The notes under the pieces were generated by a model. It was not told the DNA's origin. It did not search any database and saw only the letters and a program-made list of their open reading frames with translations. This document shows positions 12,342-52,349 of a stretch of 52,349 nucleotides of DNA, one piece after another (the first letter of the stretch is position 1; every line of letters begins with the position of its first letter). Both the position numbers and the translations under genes were made by a program. This DNA is from Nitrospirota bacterium (lineage in GTDB: Bacteria > Nitrospirota > Thermodesulfovibrionia > Thermodesulfovibrionales > JdFR-88), in contig JACWAF010000002.1 in assembly GCA_014874185.1 (NCBI GenBank), positions 1 through 52,349 of the forward strand. The letters run 5' to 3'.

Positions 12342-12424
12342 GCACCCAGTTTGCTTCATCCCAGAGAGACGGGTTTACCTTCCCGGTCTCTCTACTTCTT
12401 CCGCGAGAAGTCCTTTTTAAAAAC

Positions 12425-12598
12425 CCGCAGGCAGGTCTTCTGGCTCCCGGATCATCCTCACCTCCGCCTTCCCATGCCCCTGATGAGGCACAGTGGCTTC
12501 GCTGGAGGTCTCGTCCCCGGTTACAGCGGCGGGACCGCTCCCGATTTCCACGGGATTCCCTATTACGCCCCTTGGGGCGCCTGCAAGCCTAAATCTGG
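12425..12598 (-). promoter_or_regulatory. Cobalamin riboswitch
   Basis: On the minus strand the conserved elements occur in order: GGGAATCCCGTGGAAATCGGGA, the GGTCCCGCCGCTGTAA segment, the AGCCACTG box (complement at 12491-12498) and the closing AGCCAGAAGACCTGCC (complement at 12431-12446). This is the AdoCbl-type aptamer. Together with the terminator at 12300-12341 it should switch off cbiM, the cbiN-like gene and the Cys-rich gene when cobalamin is plentiful. Confidence 0.93.
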
Positions 12599-12609
12599 TT
12601 TTGATTTAA

Positions 12610-46330: not shown

Positions 46331-46612
46331 CTATTTGCCAGCCTCGTGCAATTCCTCATCCACCCGCTCTGCAAGGAACAGCTTCAGAAGGGACTGATAG
46401 GGTATGTCCCTTTTATTGGCAAGGGTTTTCAGGTGCTCGAGCAGGGCTTCGGGCAGGCGTATCGAGATGGTCCTTGTGGAAGGCTTCAGATTCGGGAAAG
46501 CAGCCTTCTTCGCCTTTCTGTAATCGACGTACCCGGTAGAATCGTGAGTTGCCCAGAATTCCCGTTCATCTTCTTCTGTCTTAAATTTCGGGATTTTTTT
46601 CAATTTCATCAT
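46331..46612 (-). CDS. brnA: BrnA-family antitoxin (toxin partner decayed)
   Basis: The antitoxin has about 93 residues: an N-terminal toxin-wrapping part (KIPKFKTEEDEREFWATHDST) and a ribbon-helix-helix DNA-binding end (STRTISIRLPEALLEHLKTLANKRDIPYQSLLKLFLAERV). The ATG at 46612 follows GAGAGG by 6 nt. In this frame the codons just upstream encode the tail of a BrnT toxin, so the start at 46636 belongs to that remnant. The toxin is no longer present, leaving an orphan antitoxin. Confidence 0.82.
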   Translation of the reverse strand: MMKLKKIPKFKTEEDEREFWATHDSTGYVDYRKAKKAAFPNLKPSTRTISIRLPEALLEHLKTLANKRDIPYQSLLKLFLAERVDEELHEAGK

Positions 46613-46618
46613 GGATGG

Positions 46619-46675
46619 CCTCTCTTTTTTGTTCATGTCCCGCGCGGAGATTACCCTGATTTTATTTCTGCCGGA
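46619..46675 (-). pseudogene. Remnant of a BrnT toxin gene (last 19 codons)
   Basis: Between a TGA at 46676-46678 and brnA the frame reads SGRNKIRVISARDMNKKER, matching the conserved C-terminal end of BrnT toxins (IRxISARxMxKKER). It lies in the expected place directly before brnA. The rest of the toxin gene is missing; a repeat and the end of a higA gene take its place. Confidence 0.65.
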
Positions 46676-46686
46676 TCACGCGCTCT

Positions 46687-47037
46687 TCAACATTTTTGAA
46701 TTCCATTCTCCCTCTCCCCCCGGGAGAGGGCCAGGGTGAGGGAATTCAGCACTTTTACCTCTTTTTCAAGCCTCGAATCCAGTTTGTCCTTTTCCATCTC
46801 CAGATCATACCGCGACTGAAGGTTCAGCCAGAAGCGTTCCGAGAGGCCGAAATAGCGGGAAAGCCTCAGGGCCGTATCGGCCGTGACCGCCCGCTTGCCC
46901 TGCACGATCTCGTTTATCCGCCGCGGCGGCACGCTTATGTCCCTGGCCAGCCTGTACTGGCTGATTTTGAGAGGCTTTAAAAATTCCTCTAGCAGGATTT
47001 CTCCCGAATGTATCGGGGGTGTTGGTTTGGGTTTCAT
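46687..47037 (-). CDS. HigA-family antitoxin with repeat-derived tail
   Basis: The 116-residue antitoxin has a HigA-type helix-turn-helix (ISQYRLARDISVPPRRINEIVQGKRAVTADTALRLSRYFG) and the family end ERFWLNLQSRYDLEMEK. The last 20 residues (NSLTLALSRGERENGIQKC) are translated from an intergenic repeat (46703-46746) and replace the normal end. Only a possible shred of its HigB toxin remains upstream. Confidence 0.82.
   Translation of the reverse strand: MKPKPTPPIHSGEILLEEFLKPLKISQYRLARDISVPPRRINEIVQGKRAVTADTALRLSRYFGLSERFWLNLQSRYDLEMEKDKLDSRLEKEVKVLNSLTLALSRGERENGIQKC
46703..46746. repeat. Intergenic palindromic repeat inside the higA 3' end
   Basis: ATTCTCCCTCTCCC and GGGAGAGGGCCAGGGTGAGGGAATT form the widespread CCCTCACCCTGGCCCTCTCCC-type element. 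It is read through by the HigA frame and ends close to the BrnT remnant. Confidence 0.8.
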
Positions 47038-47049
47038 TTTCTACTTCTA

Positions 47050-47070
47050 ATGATAATTGATTTCTTTTCT
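47050..47070 (-). pseudogene. Possible tail of a HigB toxin gene
   Basis: On the minus strand the codons just before higA read RKEINYH and a TAG stop (47048-47050 complement), similar to the EI-x-YH ending of HigB toxins (EITDYH in the intact copy at 38573). Upstream codons no longer resemble HigB because the RT module begins there. The stretch is very short, so the call is weak. Confidence 0.35.
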
Positions 47071-47085
47071 TAATTCTATTCGCGT

Positions 47086-47094
47086 TGGTATAAT
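47086..47094 (+). promoter_or_regulatory. Extended -10 promoter of the reverse transcriptase gene
   Basis: TGGTATAAT carries a perfect -10 with TGn extension; the transcript would start near 47101, about 19 nt before the ATG at 47120. Confidence 0.6.
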
Positions 47095-47119
47095 TAAAAA
47101 ATTTTCATTTAGGTCCATT

Positions 47120-49213
47120 ATGGCTAACGATTACCAAAGAATGTGTTCTCTCGATAATTTGAACCGTGCTTACCGCTGGGTTCAATCTAATCCTGATGCA
47201 TTATATAAAAAATTTTTTAGAGATTCTTACAGTGCCTATGCTGCCTCTTCACAATACAATCTAAATCGGCTTAGAAAACACTTGCTTAGATATGCTTTTG
47301 AAGGGACACATGCATCTAAATTATATTTTCCTAAACCATCAGGAATATTAAGGCCCTATACGTTATTGGCAGTTGATGATCAGATCGTTTATCAAGCGTG
47401 CGTCAATATTATAGCTGAGAAATTAAAATCACAAGTACAGGCCCGATACTATAAAAATATATTTGGACATCTTTATGCCGGTAAATCATCAAAATTCTTC
47501 TACTATAAATGGCAGGACGGCTACCGTTTATACTCACGAGCGGTCGTTGAAAATATAAAAAAGGGCTTTGATTATGTCGCTAATTTTGATTTAACTTCTT
47601 TTTATGATTCGATAGATCATTCTGTCTTACAGCATTTTCTTATTGAAATTGATATAGATAAAGAATTAATCGATTTTCTTTTTAGATTACTTAAACTTTG
47701 GACTTCCTCTACATGGACCAATCGATCCAATATTATTTATATCGAGCATGGAATACCTCAAGGCCCTTTGTCATCAGGATTGCTGTCCGAAGTGATACTG
47801 AAACATATCGATGATAAAGGTATACGTTTTCCTGAGAAAAACAAAAAGGTAGTTAAATATTTGCGATATGTAGATGATATTAAATTATTTGCAAAGAATG
47901 AAAAACTTTTACGTCAAAGACTGATTTCTCTTGATTTGGCGGCGAAGGAAATAGGTTTATTCCCCCAAAGTTTAAAGATAAATGTCAGAAAAGTTACTAA
48001 TCCAATCGAAGAAATCAAAACGGTAAGCGGTGTTGCAGAATTGGTTAGCAATCCAGCTATTAATCAAAACAAAATGTATAATCAAATTCTTGATCTTTCT
48101 AAAGGTGGTAAAATCCGAAATGAGGATCAAACTAAATTTAAATATCTTTTAAGCCGAACTATACCTAATTACAAGTTAAATAACAGAATAATTCAAATAT
48201 TGAAAAATCATCCATCTCTTTCTACTCATATAGCCTATTATTTTGGTAAATATAAAAAATTGCCACCTAAGTGTGCAGAAAAAATCGTTCACTTTATAAG
48301 AAATGAAGATATTTTTCATTCAGTACAGGCGGATATTTTATTTGCCACTATAGAGAATATGCCAGAGCCATATAAGGCTTACTGTTTAGGGTATTGTAAC
48401 GAGCGATTGTTTCCTACAGCAAGATTCACTGCGCAACCACAACCCTCATTAAAGGCAGCCTTACTTGCTTGGATTTTAAAAAATGACAACATTACTTATC
48501 AAAAATTAAAAATTTTTATCACGGAAGAGCTTGATTGGTGGGTAATAAAAGATGTGCTTAAATATATTCGCGATGATCAATATGGGATTGCAAGTTATAA
48601 TACCTTTTTAAATGAACAAATAGAATCTAAATATGCTGATATCGCAAGAATGGCGGCTTTAAAGATTATAAATGAAAATCTTAATGTTAATTCTAAATCC
48701 GCAAACGAAGCAGCAAAATTACTCCTGTTTTCAGCTGGAAAAATTAGGAAAATAGGAAAACCTGAAAGCCTTGTGAGCAAAGTCCTCTGTTATGTACTTA
48801 AATGTAATTTACCGCCCTTTAGCTGGGATCGTTTATTTGGGCAGAATCATAAAAAAGCTGAGTACATTGCTTTTAATGTAAAAAAGGATTTTGAATCAAA
48901 CATAAATAGTTGCTTGCTCACTTTAGATAGTTTGTGCGATTTATTATTTGAAAAATTATTTAATAAATTTCTTCCACAGAATACTTATGGAAATTATGGC
49001 AGCATGCTTCTTAATCCAACCATTAACCAAAATTTACCTAATACTTGTTCAGCTTTTCAAGAATTACATAAATTAAGATTATTATCAATTACCGCCCACC
49101 CAAGATCAAGATCAGGTAATTCAACCAGACATTTAAAATACGGAGATTTTTACAATATTAAACCTCACTTAATAAGCGCTTTTAATGAAATTGCTCAAAA
49201 TATCACAGTTTAG
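47120..49213 (+). CDS. AbiA-like defence reverse transcriptase (RT plus C-terminal HEPN-type end)
   Basis: The 697-residue protein starts at ATG 47120 behind an extended -10 promoter; an earlier ATG (47057) lies upstream of that promoter. The RT half (about 60-330) has motif A NFDLTSFYDSIDH (Asp157), motif B GIPQGPLSSG (211-220) and motif C YVDD (250-253). A long helical middle follows. The end has a HEPN-like RX6H motif (RLLSITAH, about Arg653-His660) followed by a basic tail. RT plus HEPN is the AbiA abortive-infection architecture. No msr/msd or maturase features are seen. The gene is strikingly AT-rich and uses codons unlike its neighbours, so it was acquired horizontally. It probably polymerises DNA during phage attack and arrests the host; this is inference. 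Confidence 0.72.
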   Translation: MANDYQRMCSLDNLNRAYRWVQSNPDALYKKFFRDSYSAYAASSQYNLNRLRKHLLRYAFEGTHASKLYFPKPSGILRPYTLLAVDDQIVYQACVNIIAEKLKSQVQARYYKNIFGHLYAGKSSKFFYYKWQDGYRLYSRAVVENIKKGFDYVANFDLTSFYDSIDHSVLQHFLIEIDIDKELIDFLFRLLKLWTSSTWTNRSNIIYIEHGIPQGPLSSGLLSEVILKHIDDKGIRFPEKNKKVVKYLRYVDDIKLFAKNEKLLRQRLISLDLAAKEIGLFPQSLKINVRKVTNPIEEIKTVSGVAELVSNPAINQNKMYNQILDLSKGGKIRNEDQTKFKYLLSRTIPNYKLNNRIIQILKNHPSLSTHIAYYFGKYKKLPPKCAEKIVHFIRNEDIFHSVQADILFATIENMPEPYKAYCLGYCNERLFPTARFTAQPQPSLKAALLAWILKNDNITYQKLKIFITEELDWWVIKDVLKYIRDDQYGIASYNTFLNEQIESKYADIARMAALKIINENLNVNSKSANEAAKLLLFSAGKIRKIGKPESLVSKVLCYVLKCNLPPFSWDRLFGQNHKKAEYIAFNVKKDFESNINSCLLTLDSLCDLLFEKLFNKFLPQNTYGNYGSMLLNPTINQNLPNTCSAFQELHKLRLLSITAHPRSRSGNSTRHLKYGDFYNIKPHLISAFNEIAQNITV

Positions 49214-49433: not shown

Positions 49434-50792
49434 CTACTCCATTGTTCCACGTGGAACATCTATCTCGTAGGCCTTTATCTTCCGGTGCAGGTTGGAGCGC
49501 TCAACGCCCAAAAGCTCCGCCGTCTTGGAGATGTTCCAGTTGTTCTCGGTCAGCTTCCTGCGCAGGAAATCCCTCTCGAAGGCGTCCCGCGCCTCCTTCA
49601 GGGTTTCGTACCCGAAATAGTCCTCCGCCCCGGCCTGAACGCTCGCGAAGATCAGACCCTTGCCGTCTATCACATCCCCCGGGCTCATTATCACAAGCCG
49701 CTCTATCGCGTTCCTAAGCTCCCGCACGTTTCCAGGCCAGTTGTGCTCGGAGAGCCGCTTCAGGGCCTCTTTGGTGAGCTTCTTTGCCGGGCGGCCGTAC
49801 TCAGAGGCAAGCTGACGCAAAAAGTACTCGGCCAGCTCCGGGATGTCCTCCCTGTGCGCCCGGAGGGGCGGGACGACAAGAGGGATGACGTTCAGCCTGT
49901 AGTAGAGGTCCTCGCGGAAGCTGCCCTGCTTCACCTCCCTGGCAAGGTCCTTGTTTGTGGCCGCGATCAGGCGCACATCCACGCGCAGGGTCTTGCTGCC
50001 CCCAACCCGCTGAAACTCCTGCGTTTCGATGGCGCGCAAAACCTTGGCCTGGGTGGGGAGGCTCATGTCCCCCACCTCGTCCAGAAAGAGACTGCCCCTG
50101 TCTGCAAGCTCGAATTTGCCCTTTCTGGCCTCCTGAGCGCCGGTGAAGGCGCCCTTCTCGTGCCCGAACAGTTCGCTCTCTATAAGCTCCTGGGGGATGG
50201 CCGCGCAGTTAAGCTCTATAAAGGGCATCAGGGCGCGCGGGCTAAGCTCGTGCAGCAGGCGGGCCACAAGCTCCTTGCCGCTTCCGGACTCCCCGGTTAT
50301 AAGCACCTTGCTTGCGCTCTTTGCCGCCATCTCCACCTGGGCTTTAAGCTCGCGCATCGTCTGCGACCCCCCGGCCATCGCGAGTCTGCCCCGAAGGGTC
50401 TCCTTCAGGGACTTGTTCTCGCTCTCAAGCTGGTACTTCTCCAGCGCGCGCGCGGTGCTGAGGAGCACCCGGTCCATGGAGAGGGGCTTTTCAAGGAAAT
50501 CATAGGCGCCCATGCGGGTGGCCTTCACGGCAAGCTCTATGGTGCCGTGGCCGGTTATCATTATCACGGGCAGTTCGGTGTGGGCGGCCTTTATCTTCTG
50601 AAGGCAGTCGGTGCCGTCCATCCCCGGAAGCCAGATGTCCAGTATGACAAGCTCCGGGGGCTTCTTTGCAATGATTTCAAGGGCCTCCTCCCCGGTGGAG
50701 GCAAGCTCCACCTCGTAGCCCTCGTCTTTCAGGATGTCGGCCAGGCTCTCCCTGATGTTCTCTTCATCGTCTACAATCAGGATTCGCGGCAT
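49434..50792 (-). CDS. Sigma-54-dependent response regulator (NtrX/NtrC-like)
   Basis: The 452-residue activator has a receiver domain (RILIVDDEEN; acceptor in LVILDIWLPG; IEL...FLEKPLSMD), an AAA+ sigma-54 activator domain with Walker A GESGSGKE, GAFTGA loop and Walker B LFLDEVGDM, and a Fis-type helix-turn-helix (WNISKTAELLGVERSNLHRKIKAYEI). It opens sigma-54 promoters when phosphorylated. The last codons (DVPRGTME) are encoded by a parS site. No histidine kinase is adjacent in the window. Confidence 0.93.
   Translation of the reverse strand: MPRILIVDDEENIRESLADILKDEGYEVELASTGEEALEIIAKKPPELVILDIWLPGMDGTDCLQKIKAAHTELPVIMITGHGTIELAVKATRMGAYDFLEKPLSMDRVLLSTARALEKYQLESENKSLKETLRGRLAMAGGSQTMRELKAQVEMAAKSASKVLITGESGSGKELVARLLHELSPRALMPFIELNCAAIPQELIESELFGHEKGAFTGAQEARKGKFELADRGSLFLDEVGDMSLPTQAKVLRAIETQEFQRVGGSKTLRVDVRLIAATNKDLAREVKQGSFREDLYYRLNVIPLVVPPLRAHREDIPELAEYFLRQLASEYGRPAKKLTKEALKRLSEHNWPGNVRELRNAIERLVIMSPGDVIDGKGLIFASVQAGAEDYFGYETLKEARDAFERDFLRRKLTENNWNISKTAELLGVERSNLHRKIKAYEIDVPRGTME
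49443..49458. promoter_or_regulatory. parS centromere site 2, inside the NtrX-like gene
   Basis: A second exact TGTTCCACGTGGAACA, 181 nt from the first, located in the last codons of the regulator gene, where it encodes DVPRGT. Both sites lie about 9 kb from parAB. Confidence 0.92.
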
Positions 50793-50996
50793 TTTATTCC
50801 TTTACGTTTTCGAAATGAGTCGCGTTTTCATTTTTAACCCAACTTTAAAGGTACACCGCTTCTACTATTTACGCTCTTTTTGAGAATACCCCTTTATAAT
50901 TGAAAAGGTCAAAATTATGCGTTTCCTTCTTTTCTTCCCAAACGAATTATTCATAAATGTTTGCCCGCGCATATCCGCGCATGTAATAAATGAAAA

Positions 50997-51025
50997 TTGA
51001 CAAATGTAAACATTTCCTGTAATCA
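50997..51025 (+). promoter_or_regulatory. Candidate promoter of the structured RNA
   Basis: A perfect -35 TTGACA (50997-51002) is 17 nt from a weak -10 TAATCA (51020-51025). This would start transcription near 51032, exactly at the first hairpin of the RNA. Confidence 0.45.
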
Positions 51026-51031
51026 TATGAT

Positions 51032-51124
51032 TGAGCGGTAAGACCGCTGTGGGTTCCTCTGGTGTTCCCTTCCGTAGGTTGGCCAAGCCAGGGGGTACAC
51101 ACCCGCAGGGCACGCTCTTTTTTT
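51032..51124 (+). ncRNA. Candidate structured small RNA convergent to DUF3800
   Basis: The RNA would be about 92 nt. A 5' hairpin AGCGGU/ACCGCU (51034-51048) is followed by a long stem: 51049-51054 with 51101-51106 (GUGGGU/ACCCGC), a five-base bulge, then 51055-51062 with 51088-51095 (UCCUCUGG/CCAGGGGG). The stem holds three U-G pairs that would be A-C mismatches on the other strand, so the plus strand is the one that folds. A run of seven T follows (51118-51124). GAGCG near the 5' end can also pair with CGCTC before the T run, suggesting an alternative fold. The minus-strand DUF3800 gene ends at its 3' edge. Confidence 0.6.
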
Positions 51125-51752
51125 ATGGCAAATATACATCGTCATATTTGATCTTACCCTTAAAGACATCAAACCATTCCTGGTCATTCTTCTCATATTT
51201 CCGGTAAATCCCCCACGAAAACAAATCAACGGCCTGAAGGGGCAGGTCTTCATGGGAAAGATGGTGGTTTATATCAAGCGGTATTCTTGGCTCTATTCTG
51301 CCGCTTAGCTGCCGGATCAGGTAATCATCGAACTCTCTTATTTCCTTCTTGCTCTTGCTCCTGTCTATTGTCAGGCCGACCCTCACCGAGGCATTTGCAA
51401 ATGGAATGACATCCAGGACTTTTCTAGCTATGAAGTTATAAACCCGATCCTTCTTCTGGGAAAGATGATCATAGACACGCCTTTTATTGAGGGTAAGGGC
51501 ATAAAGCTCGAAGGGTACGCGCTCTATATGCCTGTAAAAATACCGTTTTACCTCTATGGATTGTTTTGACCCTTTCAATTCGGGTTGTCTTGACAGCTTC
51601 TTTTGAAGCGTTCTTTTTACCGCCCTGGCAATCATTTTCCTGTTTTCCATTCCCTGCACCAGCATTACGGTAACCGTAAAATATTTCGAGGGCTTTTTGG
51701 CGAAGAAGTCAAAGCCCAGGTCCCCGCTTTCGTCAAGATAGAGATAAAGCAT
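51123..51752 (-). CDS. DUF3800 domain protein
   Basis: The 209-residue protein starts MLYLYLDESGDLGF, the signature of DUF3800, an RNase H-like fold with conserved acids (DES motif; later IDRSKSKKE and LPLQAVDLFSWG). The family is common in phages and islands; its function is not established, but active-site geometry suggests a nuclease. The start codon follows GAAGGGG inside a fragment duplicated from the regulator gene. A structured RNA candidate converges on its 3' end. Confidence 0.88.
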   Translation of the reverse strand: MLYLYLDESGDLGFDFFAKKPSKYFTVTVMLVQGMENRKMIARAVKRTLQKKLSRQPELKGSKQSIEVKRYFYRHIERVPFELYALTLNKRRVYDHLSQKKDRVYNFIARKVLDVIPFANASVRVGLTIDRSKSKKEIREFDDYLIRQLSGRIEPRIPLDINHHLSHEDLPLQAVDLFSWGIYRKYEKNDQEWFDVFKGKIKYDDVYLP

Positions 51753-51756
51753 TTAT

Positions 51757-51831
51757 CTATTTTCCCCTTCTGCAGTGCGACAGGCTCTCCCTGATGTTCT
51801 CTTCATCGTCTACGATCAGTATTCGCGGCAT
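51757..51831 (-). pseudogene. Duplicated 5' fragment of the NtrX-like gene
   Basis: The frame reads MPRILIVDDEENIRESL, identical to the start of the regulator at 50792, then SHCRRGK and a TAG. At the DNA level 51781-51832 matches 50742-50793 with very few changes, and similarity fades into the upstream region. It sits directly before the DUF3800 gene on the same strand and may supply its translation signals. Confidence 0.85.
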
Positions 51832-51864
51832 ATTAGGCCCTGAATTTGATAATGAGTTTCGTTT

Positions 51865-52047
51865 TCATTTGAGTTTCTGTTTTACTTCTTCGGGGGAGGC
51901 GGTTTCAAAGAACAGTTCCAATGCTTCTTTAAGGTTATCTCGCGCCTCCTCAATAGAGACCCCCTGGCTTGCTATGTCAAGCTCCGGGCATAGAGAAACA
52001 TATCCGGCATCTTCCTTTTCTATGATCGCGGTTAGTTTTTGTTTCAT
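51865..52047 (-). CDS. HicB-family antitoxin-like protein, orphan
   Basis: The 60-residue HicB-type partial RNase H fold: KLTAIIEKEDAGYVSLCPELDIASQGVSIEEARDNLKEALELFFE. HicB usually neutralises a HicA RNA-cleaving toxin encoded beside it. No HicA is found on either side; the downstream position is taken by the regulator-gene fragment. It may be an orphan antitoxin. Confidence 0.82.
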   Translation of the reverse strand: MKQKLTAIIEKEDAGYVSLCPELDIASQGVSIEEARDNLKEALELFFETASPEEVKQKLK

Positions 52048-52074: not shown

Positions 52075-52209
52075 CTAAATTATTATTTTTAAGATTTTCC
52101 CGACACTTTTATCTAAATCGTTCTTAATCTCTGATTCCCAAATCCTAATAATTTTCCAGCCCTCCGTTTTAAGCTCCTTATTGACTTCTTTATCTCTTCT
52201 GATATTTTT
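52075..52209 (-). pseudogene. C-terminal fragment of a Vsr/DUF559-type endonuclease
   Basis: The frame ending in TAG at 52075-52077 reads NIRRDKEVNKELKTEGWKII then RIWESEIKNDLDKSVGKILK, matching the C-terminal half of very-short-patch-repair (Vsr) and related DUF559 endonucleases (N-x-x-RD...GW.V..IWE). The upstream part is cut off by the insertion sequence at 52210. Vsr nicks T-G mismatches next to cytosine-methylated sites, so the intact gene probably belonged to a restriction-modification island. Confidence 0.72.
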
Positions 52210-52349
52210 GGCTCTACTGGGTTTCCTGTGGGTACAGGTTGAGCTTCCCACAGAAAAACAGGATGGCTATCCTGTAATTTTCAAAGTTCCTGAATCCCCG
52301 AGCTGCTGACTTCACCTGCTGGACCCTGCTGTTTATTCCCTCTACCGCA
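52210..52349. mobile_element. Terminus of an ISL3-family insertion sequence
   Basis: GGCTCTACTGGGTTTCC at 52210-52226 has the GGCTxT start typical of ISL3-family inverted repeats and coincides with the point where the Vsr-like frame breaks off. The transposase gene begins four bases inside and runs out of the window. Confidence 0.7.
52214..52349 (-). CDS. ISL3-family transposase, C-terminal fragment
   Basis: The frame from the window edge to TAG at 52214-52216 reads AVEGINSRVQQVKSAARGFR then NFENYRIAILFFCGKLNLYPQ, the typical C-terminus of ISL3 (IS204/IS1001/IS1165-type) DDE transposases, including the catalytic-glutamate region EGINS. It is cut by the window end. Confidence 0.82.
   Translation of the reverse strand, partial: AVEGINSRVQQVKSAARGFRNFENYRIAILFFCGKLNLYPQETQ

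Follow-up and report, generated by a model that had tools for sequence, protein, structure and literature searches.

The window, by which we mean the whole 52,349-nucleotide stretch of Nitrospirota DNA analyzed here, contains close to one end a small structured RNA and a protein-coding gene that point towards each other. The RNA (51027-51122, plus strand) is matched by the Rfam family DUF3800-V (RF02964) over model positions 1-96 of 96 with a score of 65.9 bits. As this match is full-length and lies above the gathering score of the family (37.4 bits), the RNA is a further member of an existing Rfam family. The gene (51123-51752, minus strand) encodes a protein of 209 residues that matches PF12686 (DUF3800) with an E-value of 2.8e-11 and 44.8 bits, against a cut-off of 21. 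An earlier note, made from the nucleotide sequence alone, had described a structured small RNA facing a DUF3800 gene and had pointed to the class of DUF3800 RNA motifs; the convergent layout and the comparison with the Rfam covariance models bear out both points. DUF3800 RNAs are attributed to Weinberg et al. (2017) in a paper citing that work (PMC10910872), and in the literature searched we found no paper assigning them a function.

The RNA is preceded by a sigma-70-type promoter (50997-51026, plus strand), consisting of TTGACA (50997-51002), an 18-nt spacer and AATCAT (51021-51026). The suitable distance of the TTGACA element had been noted before, and a similar -35/-10 pair lies directly upstream of most of the 29 homologous RNAs that we gathered from genomes of the same phylum and aligned. 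The transcript likely spans about 51033-51124 on the plus strand, from the closing or terminator stem, in which GAGCG (51033-51037) pairs with CGCUC (51113-51117), to the end of a U-run at 51118-51124, which is the terminal T run recognized originally. The length of the RNA is nearly constant, at 100-107 nt in the 54 loci checked. Its U-run overlaps the stop codon of the DUF3800 gene, RNA and gene thus being placed tail-to-tail.

The plus strand folds with an energy of -40.7 kcal/mol (z -2.44; 2 of 200 shuffled sequences equally good), the minus strand with -31.2 kcal/mol (z -0.86). In the alignment of the 29 homologues, the closing stem is paired in 85.5% of the cells and double changes are present. 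The long bulged stem P2 (51047-51108), which carries an apical CCUUCC/GGUUGG hairpin, comprises 8 base pairs (51047-51054 with 51101-51108) and 7 base pairs (51056-51062 with 51088-51094), which are paired in 97.8% and 87.7% of the cells, respectively, with double changes in 12 of the 15 pairs. It corresponds to the 14-bp bulged stem described earlier, now with the support of covariation. Over the whole structure, double changes occur in 17 of 26 pairs, a value reached by none of 500 shuffles and far above that of slid controls. Uncompensated stem-breaking substitutions at loci with a DUF3800 gene had been proposed as evidence against the RNA; among the homologues, the stem is instead maintained by compensated changes. 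Further, the non-helical segments are conserved in sequence. Compared to the RF02964 consensus, the window RNA shows the same fold and likewise adjoins a DUF3800 gene, but the outermost consensus pairs are not formed and the GAGCG/CGCUC stem closes the structure instead. A 5' hairpin (AGCGGU-AAG-ACCGCU), also part of the original proposal, could form in the window sequence but has no covariation support; it competes with the closing stem, whose pairing survives two-sided changes, and we therefore rejected it.

The AlphaFold model of the DUF3800 protein has a pLDDT of 92, and its best matches in the PDB are to RNase HII (Foldseek E-value 3e-6; Z-score 13.2 over 164 residues at 2.9 Å), followed by RNase HIII and then by the PIWI domains of Argonautes. 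We confidently assign the predicted structure to an RNase HII-like fold; earlier papers already describe an RNase H fold for DUF3800 (PMC10910872, PMC12669027). Sequence searches for relatives of solved structure gave no credible match. Across 72 proteins, little or no variation is seen at the residues D7-E8-S9-G10-D11, E58, D130 and D176: E8, E58 and D130 are invariant, and D7 and D176 are conserved in at least 90%. The acidic residues among them are intact in the window protein and are putatively catalytic.

PADLOC gave no match for the window DUF3800 protein. It did identify, about 2 kb from the RNA-gene pair, a reverse transcriptase of the RT_UG19 (DRT) class (47057-49213, plus strand; E-value 5e-158), close to which lie an HTH gene (46687-47037, minus strand) and a CopG antitoxin gene (46331-46636, minus strand). 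The window further contains a cobalamin riboswitch (12413-12599, minus strand; 120 bits) and, near the contig end, a short ORF (52075-52251, minus strand) that resembles the C-termini of DUF559/MTES_1575 nucleases.

A profile of the DUF3800-V proteins, run against a species-level collection of genomes, yielded 432 relatives. We fetched the best 80 and searched their loci with a covariance model derived from the aligned RNAs, 29 in number. Two of the 80 loci were truncated; in all of the 78 usable loci, that is, those in which the end of the gene is present, an RNA converges on the tail of the gene. These loci come from many phyla, and they indicate that RNA and protein form a pair, as had been suspected, and an obligately linked one. 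In three of the 78 the gene has an in-frame stop, yet the RNA is high-scoring. The distance from the RNA edge to the stop codon has a median of -2 nt (54 loci). A locus with two DUF3800-V RNAs 466 nt apart (L048, 5115-5676) has a gene with the second only, and tandem DUF3800-V cassettes in one genome bin (L118, 4899-9061) comprise three intact genes and a broken one, with an RNA at each. In two loci (L050, 12196-13183; L153, 1501-2091), RNAs of the DUF3800-VII type are likewise tail-to-tail with their DUF3800 genes, so that the arrangement may be general; a search for DUF3800-I across the phylum gave no match and was uninformative.

Since 3' ends abut or overlap in nearly all loci, the RNA might merely control DUF3800 expression, by pairing with the mRNA or by blocking converging transcription. 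The gene strand has no apparent terminator before the RNA, so that an mRNA extended by readthrough would carry the exact complement of the RNA. Antisense pairing, however, requires neither a compensated fold nor conserved non-helical segments, and the RNA is retained where the gene is absent. Complementarity to the leader of the adjoining gene is not specific to that gene (P = 0.97), and we rejected an antisense action at this site. Control of expression in cis is thus hardly probable as the sole function of the RNA.

Seen from the side of the RNA, the linkage is looser. Among the 29 aligned RNA loci, the gene is intact in 14, broken in six, absent in eight and cut by a contig edge in one; in a thirtieth locus (A94b) it is also broken. 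Four genomes with the RNA carry no DUF3800-V gene at all. The gene offers mutations a larger target than the RNA does and the covariance search recovers well-formed RNAs only, so broken genes near intact RNAs are partly expected. The promoter lies outside the search model, and its retention is therefore not an effect of the way in which the loci were discovered: the orphan RNAs keep both their stem pairing and promoter-like elements, with a promoter score of about 10 of 12 compared to 7.8 for shuffled upstream sequence. Two orphan RNAs (L054 and L056; A336 and A352c), whose loci share their flanks and hold no trace of a DUF3800 gene, differ by changes that leave the pairs intact and are in part compensatory; this may reflect selection on the RNA without the gene.

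That no usable locus has the gene without the RNA, while the RNA does persist without the gene, fits an RNA that restrains the nuclease. We therefore favor, tentatively and with a little less than half of our confidence, a mobile two-gene cassette in which the RNA would bind the nuclease and keep it in check, the nuclease being tolerated only as long as the RNA is produced. The pair would then represent an addiction or defense module with a structured RNA as antidote; the toxin-antitoxin-like role raised in the earlier note would agree with a loss that affects mainly the gene. The main rival is an RNA-activated nuclease, in which the RNA would be an essential scaffold or cofactor and the ribonucleoprotein would attack RNA or RNA-DNA hybrids, such as those of phages or plasmids. 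The absence of genes without the RNA among the 78 usable loci agrees with this, as do the RNase H fold of the protein and the conserved non-helical segments, which are of the kind expected of protein-binding RNAs. DUF3800 proteins also occur at some V-A2 (Cas12a2) and VI-F CRISPR loci, where a role in interference or crRNA handling has been suggested (PMC10910872, PMC12669027). As in the window, an RNase H-fold DUF3800 domain is there linked to RNA biology; the Cas12a2-linked proteins, though, carry TPR domains and stand in a CRISPR setting, whereas the window protein is a stand-alone chain of 209 residues with its own small RNA. Against activation speaks the persistence of RNA and promoter in gene-free genomes, which would not be expected of a pure cofactor; we regard the RNA-activated nuclease as possible but not probable.

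The combination of an RNase H-fold nuclease with an adjoining structured RNA in a mobile unit also recalls the omega RNAs of TnpB and IscB, and the earlier note had considered a guide. In those OMEGA systems, the guide end is drawn from the flanking sequence. In our loci, by contrast, both ends of the RNA are fixed, by a promoter a few nucleotides before the closing stem and a terminator right after it; the length is constant, no segment derived from the flanks is seen, and the longest variable unpaired stretch in the alignment is about 7 nt. A guide role is therefore unlikely, and we reserve only a very small probability for the RNA directing an RNA-guided nuclease.

The antitoxin RNAs known from type III toxin-antitoxin systems are short tandem repeats that precede the toxin gene within a single operon. 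The likeness to these systems lies in an RNA that would directly restrain a nuclease, as we propose here. The cassette differs from them in that it has a single structured RNA in place of a repeat array, in the convergent rather than operonic layout, in the separate promoter of the RNA and in the RNase HII-like fold of the protein.

RNA and gene travel together in a compact cassette that is about 0.8-1.2 kb long, also across phyla. The cassettes of L089 and L095 are 94.8% identical over 849 nt, and those of L093, from a Calditrichaceae bin, and L096, from a deltaproteobacterial bin, 95.0% over 1221 nt, in both cases within unrelated flanks. In several cassette pairs the similarity stops near both promoters. 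Searches against phages gave no DNA match to the cassette, and those against phages and plasmids only distant proteins. The best defense model, a type I methyltransferase, was found in 5 of 143 cases near the cassette and in 2 of 108 far from it, a weak indication that defense genes are slightly commoner next to it. We found no earlier report of obligate pairing and of evidence for mobility in the literature searched; the evidence presented here is computational.

In 14 of 73 loci the cassette is closely bracketed by direct repeats, compared to 5 of 202 control genes (P = 1e-5); no more than roughly one locus in five thus has them. Most of them are ends of a neighboring gene, and in at least ten loci they coincide with the gene ends. 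The duplicated 3' ends are, for instance, hsdM-like, glycosyltransferase-like or hydrolase-like, and the 5' ends belong to ntrX in the window and in a relative (L059), and to hsdM-, proC- and dinD-like genes elsewhere; except for the window ntrX, which was run against Pfam and NCBIfam, these names come from reading the translations. In the window, an intact gene for an NtrX-like sigma-54 response regulator (49434-50792, minus strand), whose NCBIfam NtrX score is below the curated cut-off of the model, has its 5' end duplicated beyond the cassette. By sequence comparison, the left repeat copy (50742-50833, minus strand) holds the start and leader of the intact gene and the right copy (51781-51870, minus strand) the leader and the first 17 ntrX codons. 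The ORF of this fragment (51757-51831, minus strand) ends 4 nt before the DUF3800 start.

Pooled over the repeat pairs, the codons of the two copies differ by 66 synonymous and 35 nonsynonymous changes, where 18 synonymous changes would be expected under neutrality. Such a synonymous excess is not expected of a decaying duplicate. The two copies thus resemble alleles that have diverged, which disfavors a simple duplication followed by neutral decay and suggests recombination with a foreign allele. Individual pairs vary: nonsynonymous changes outnumber synonymous ones in A360, there are no coding differences in L059, and the A277 pair lies in a region with several repeats.

The repeats might also be chance occurrences, dispersed repeats or local duplications and say nothing about the movement of the cassette. 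Those of L079, L083 and L117 do look like intergenic dispersed repeats, and control genes are also flanked in some cases (the 5 of 202 above). Further, a search of the family for a clean empty site at ntrX gave none that would simply match the window without its cassette; in the cassette-free members in which we found an ntrX start, this start is immediately preceded by a sensor-kinase-like gene. Nevertheless, the excess over controls, the coincidence with gene ends, the bias of the divergence towards synonymous sites and the near-identical cassettes in differing flanks all speak against uninformative repeats, an explanation we consider improbable.

The repeats also suggest a mode of entry for the mobile cassette. 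The arriving cassette would bring along a foreign allele of the end of a gene; recombination would be homologous at one of its sides and illegitimate at the other, and the old gene end of the resident would be left on the far side of the cassette. Long direct repeats also flank restriction-modification genes whose insertion involved a long duplication of the target (Nobusato et al. 2000, as cited in PMC1643837); those units combine a methylase with a nuclease, whereas the cassette combines an RNA with a nuclease. It is conceivable, although we think it doubtful, that DUF3800 RNA cassettes constitute a distinct class of selfish mobile elements, an RNase HII-like nuclease with a non-guide RNA, that spread between phyla by entering gene ends with a foreign end allele while the gene is kept intact, the nuclease perhaps provoking the recombination.

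DUF3800 RNAs have been on record since 2017. Their linkage to the gene, the RNA outliving the gene, the likeness of the protein to RNase HII and the joint mobility now give rise to testable claims, namely toxicity of the nuclease, binding of the RNA and insertion at gene ends, and may offer a lead on the DUF3800 proteins that accompany some Cas12a2 and type VI-F loci.
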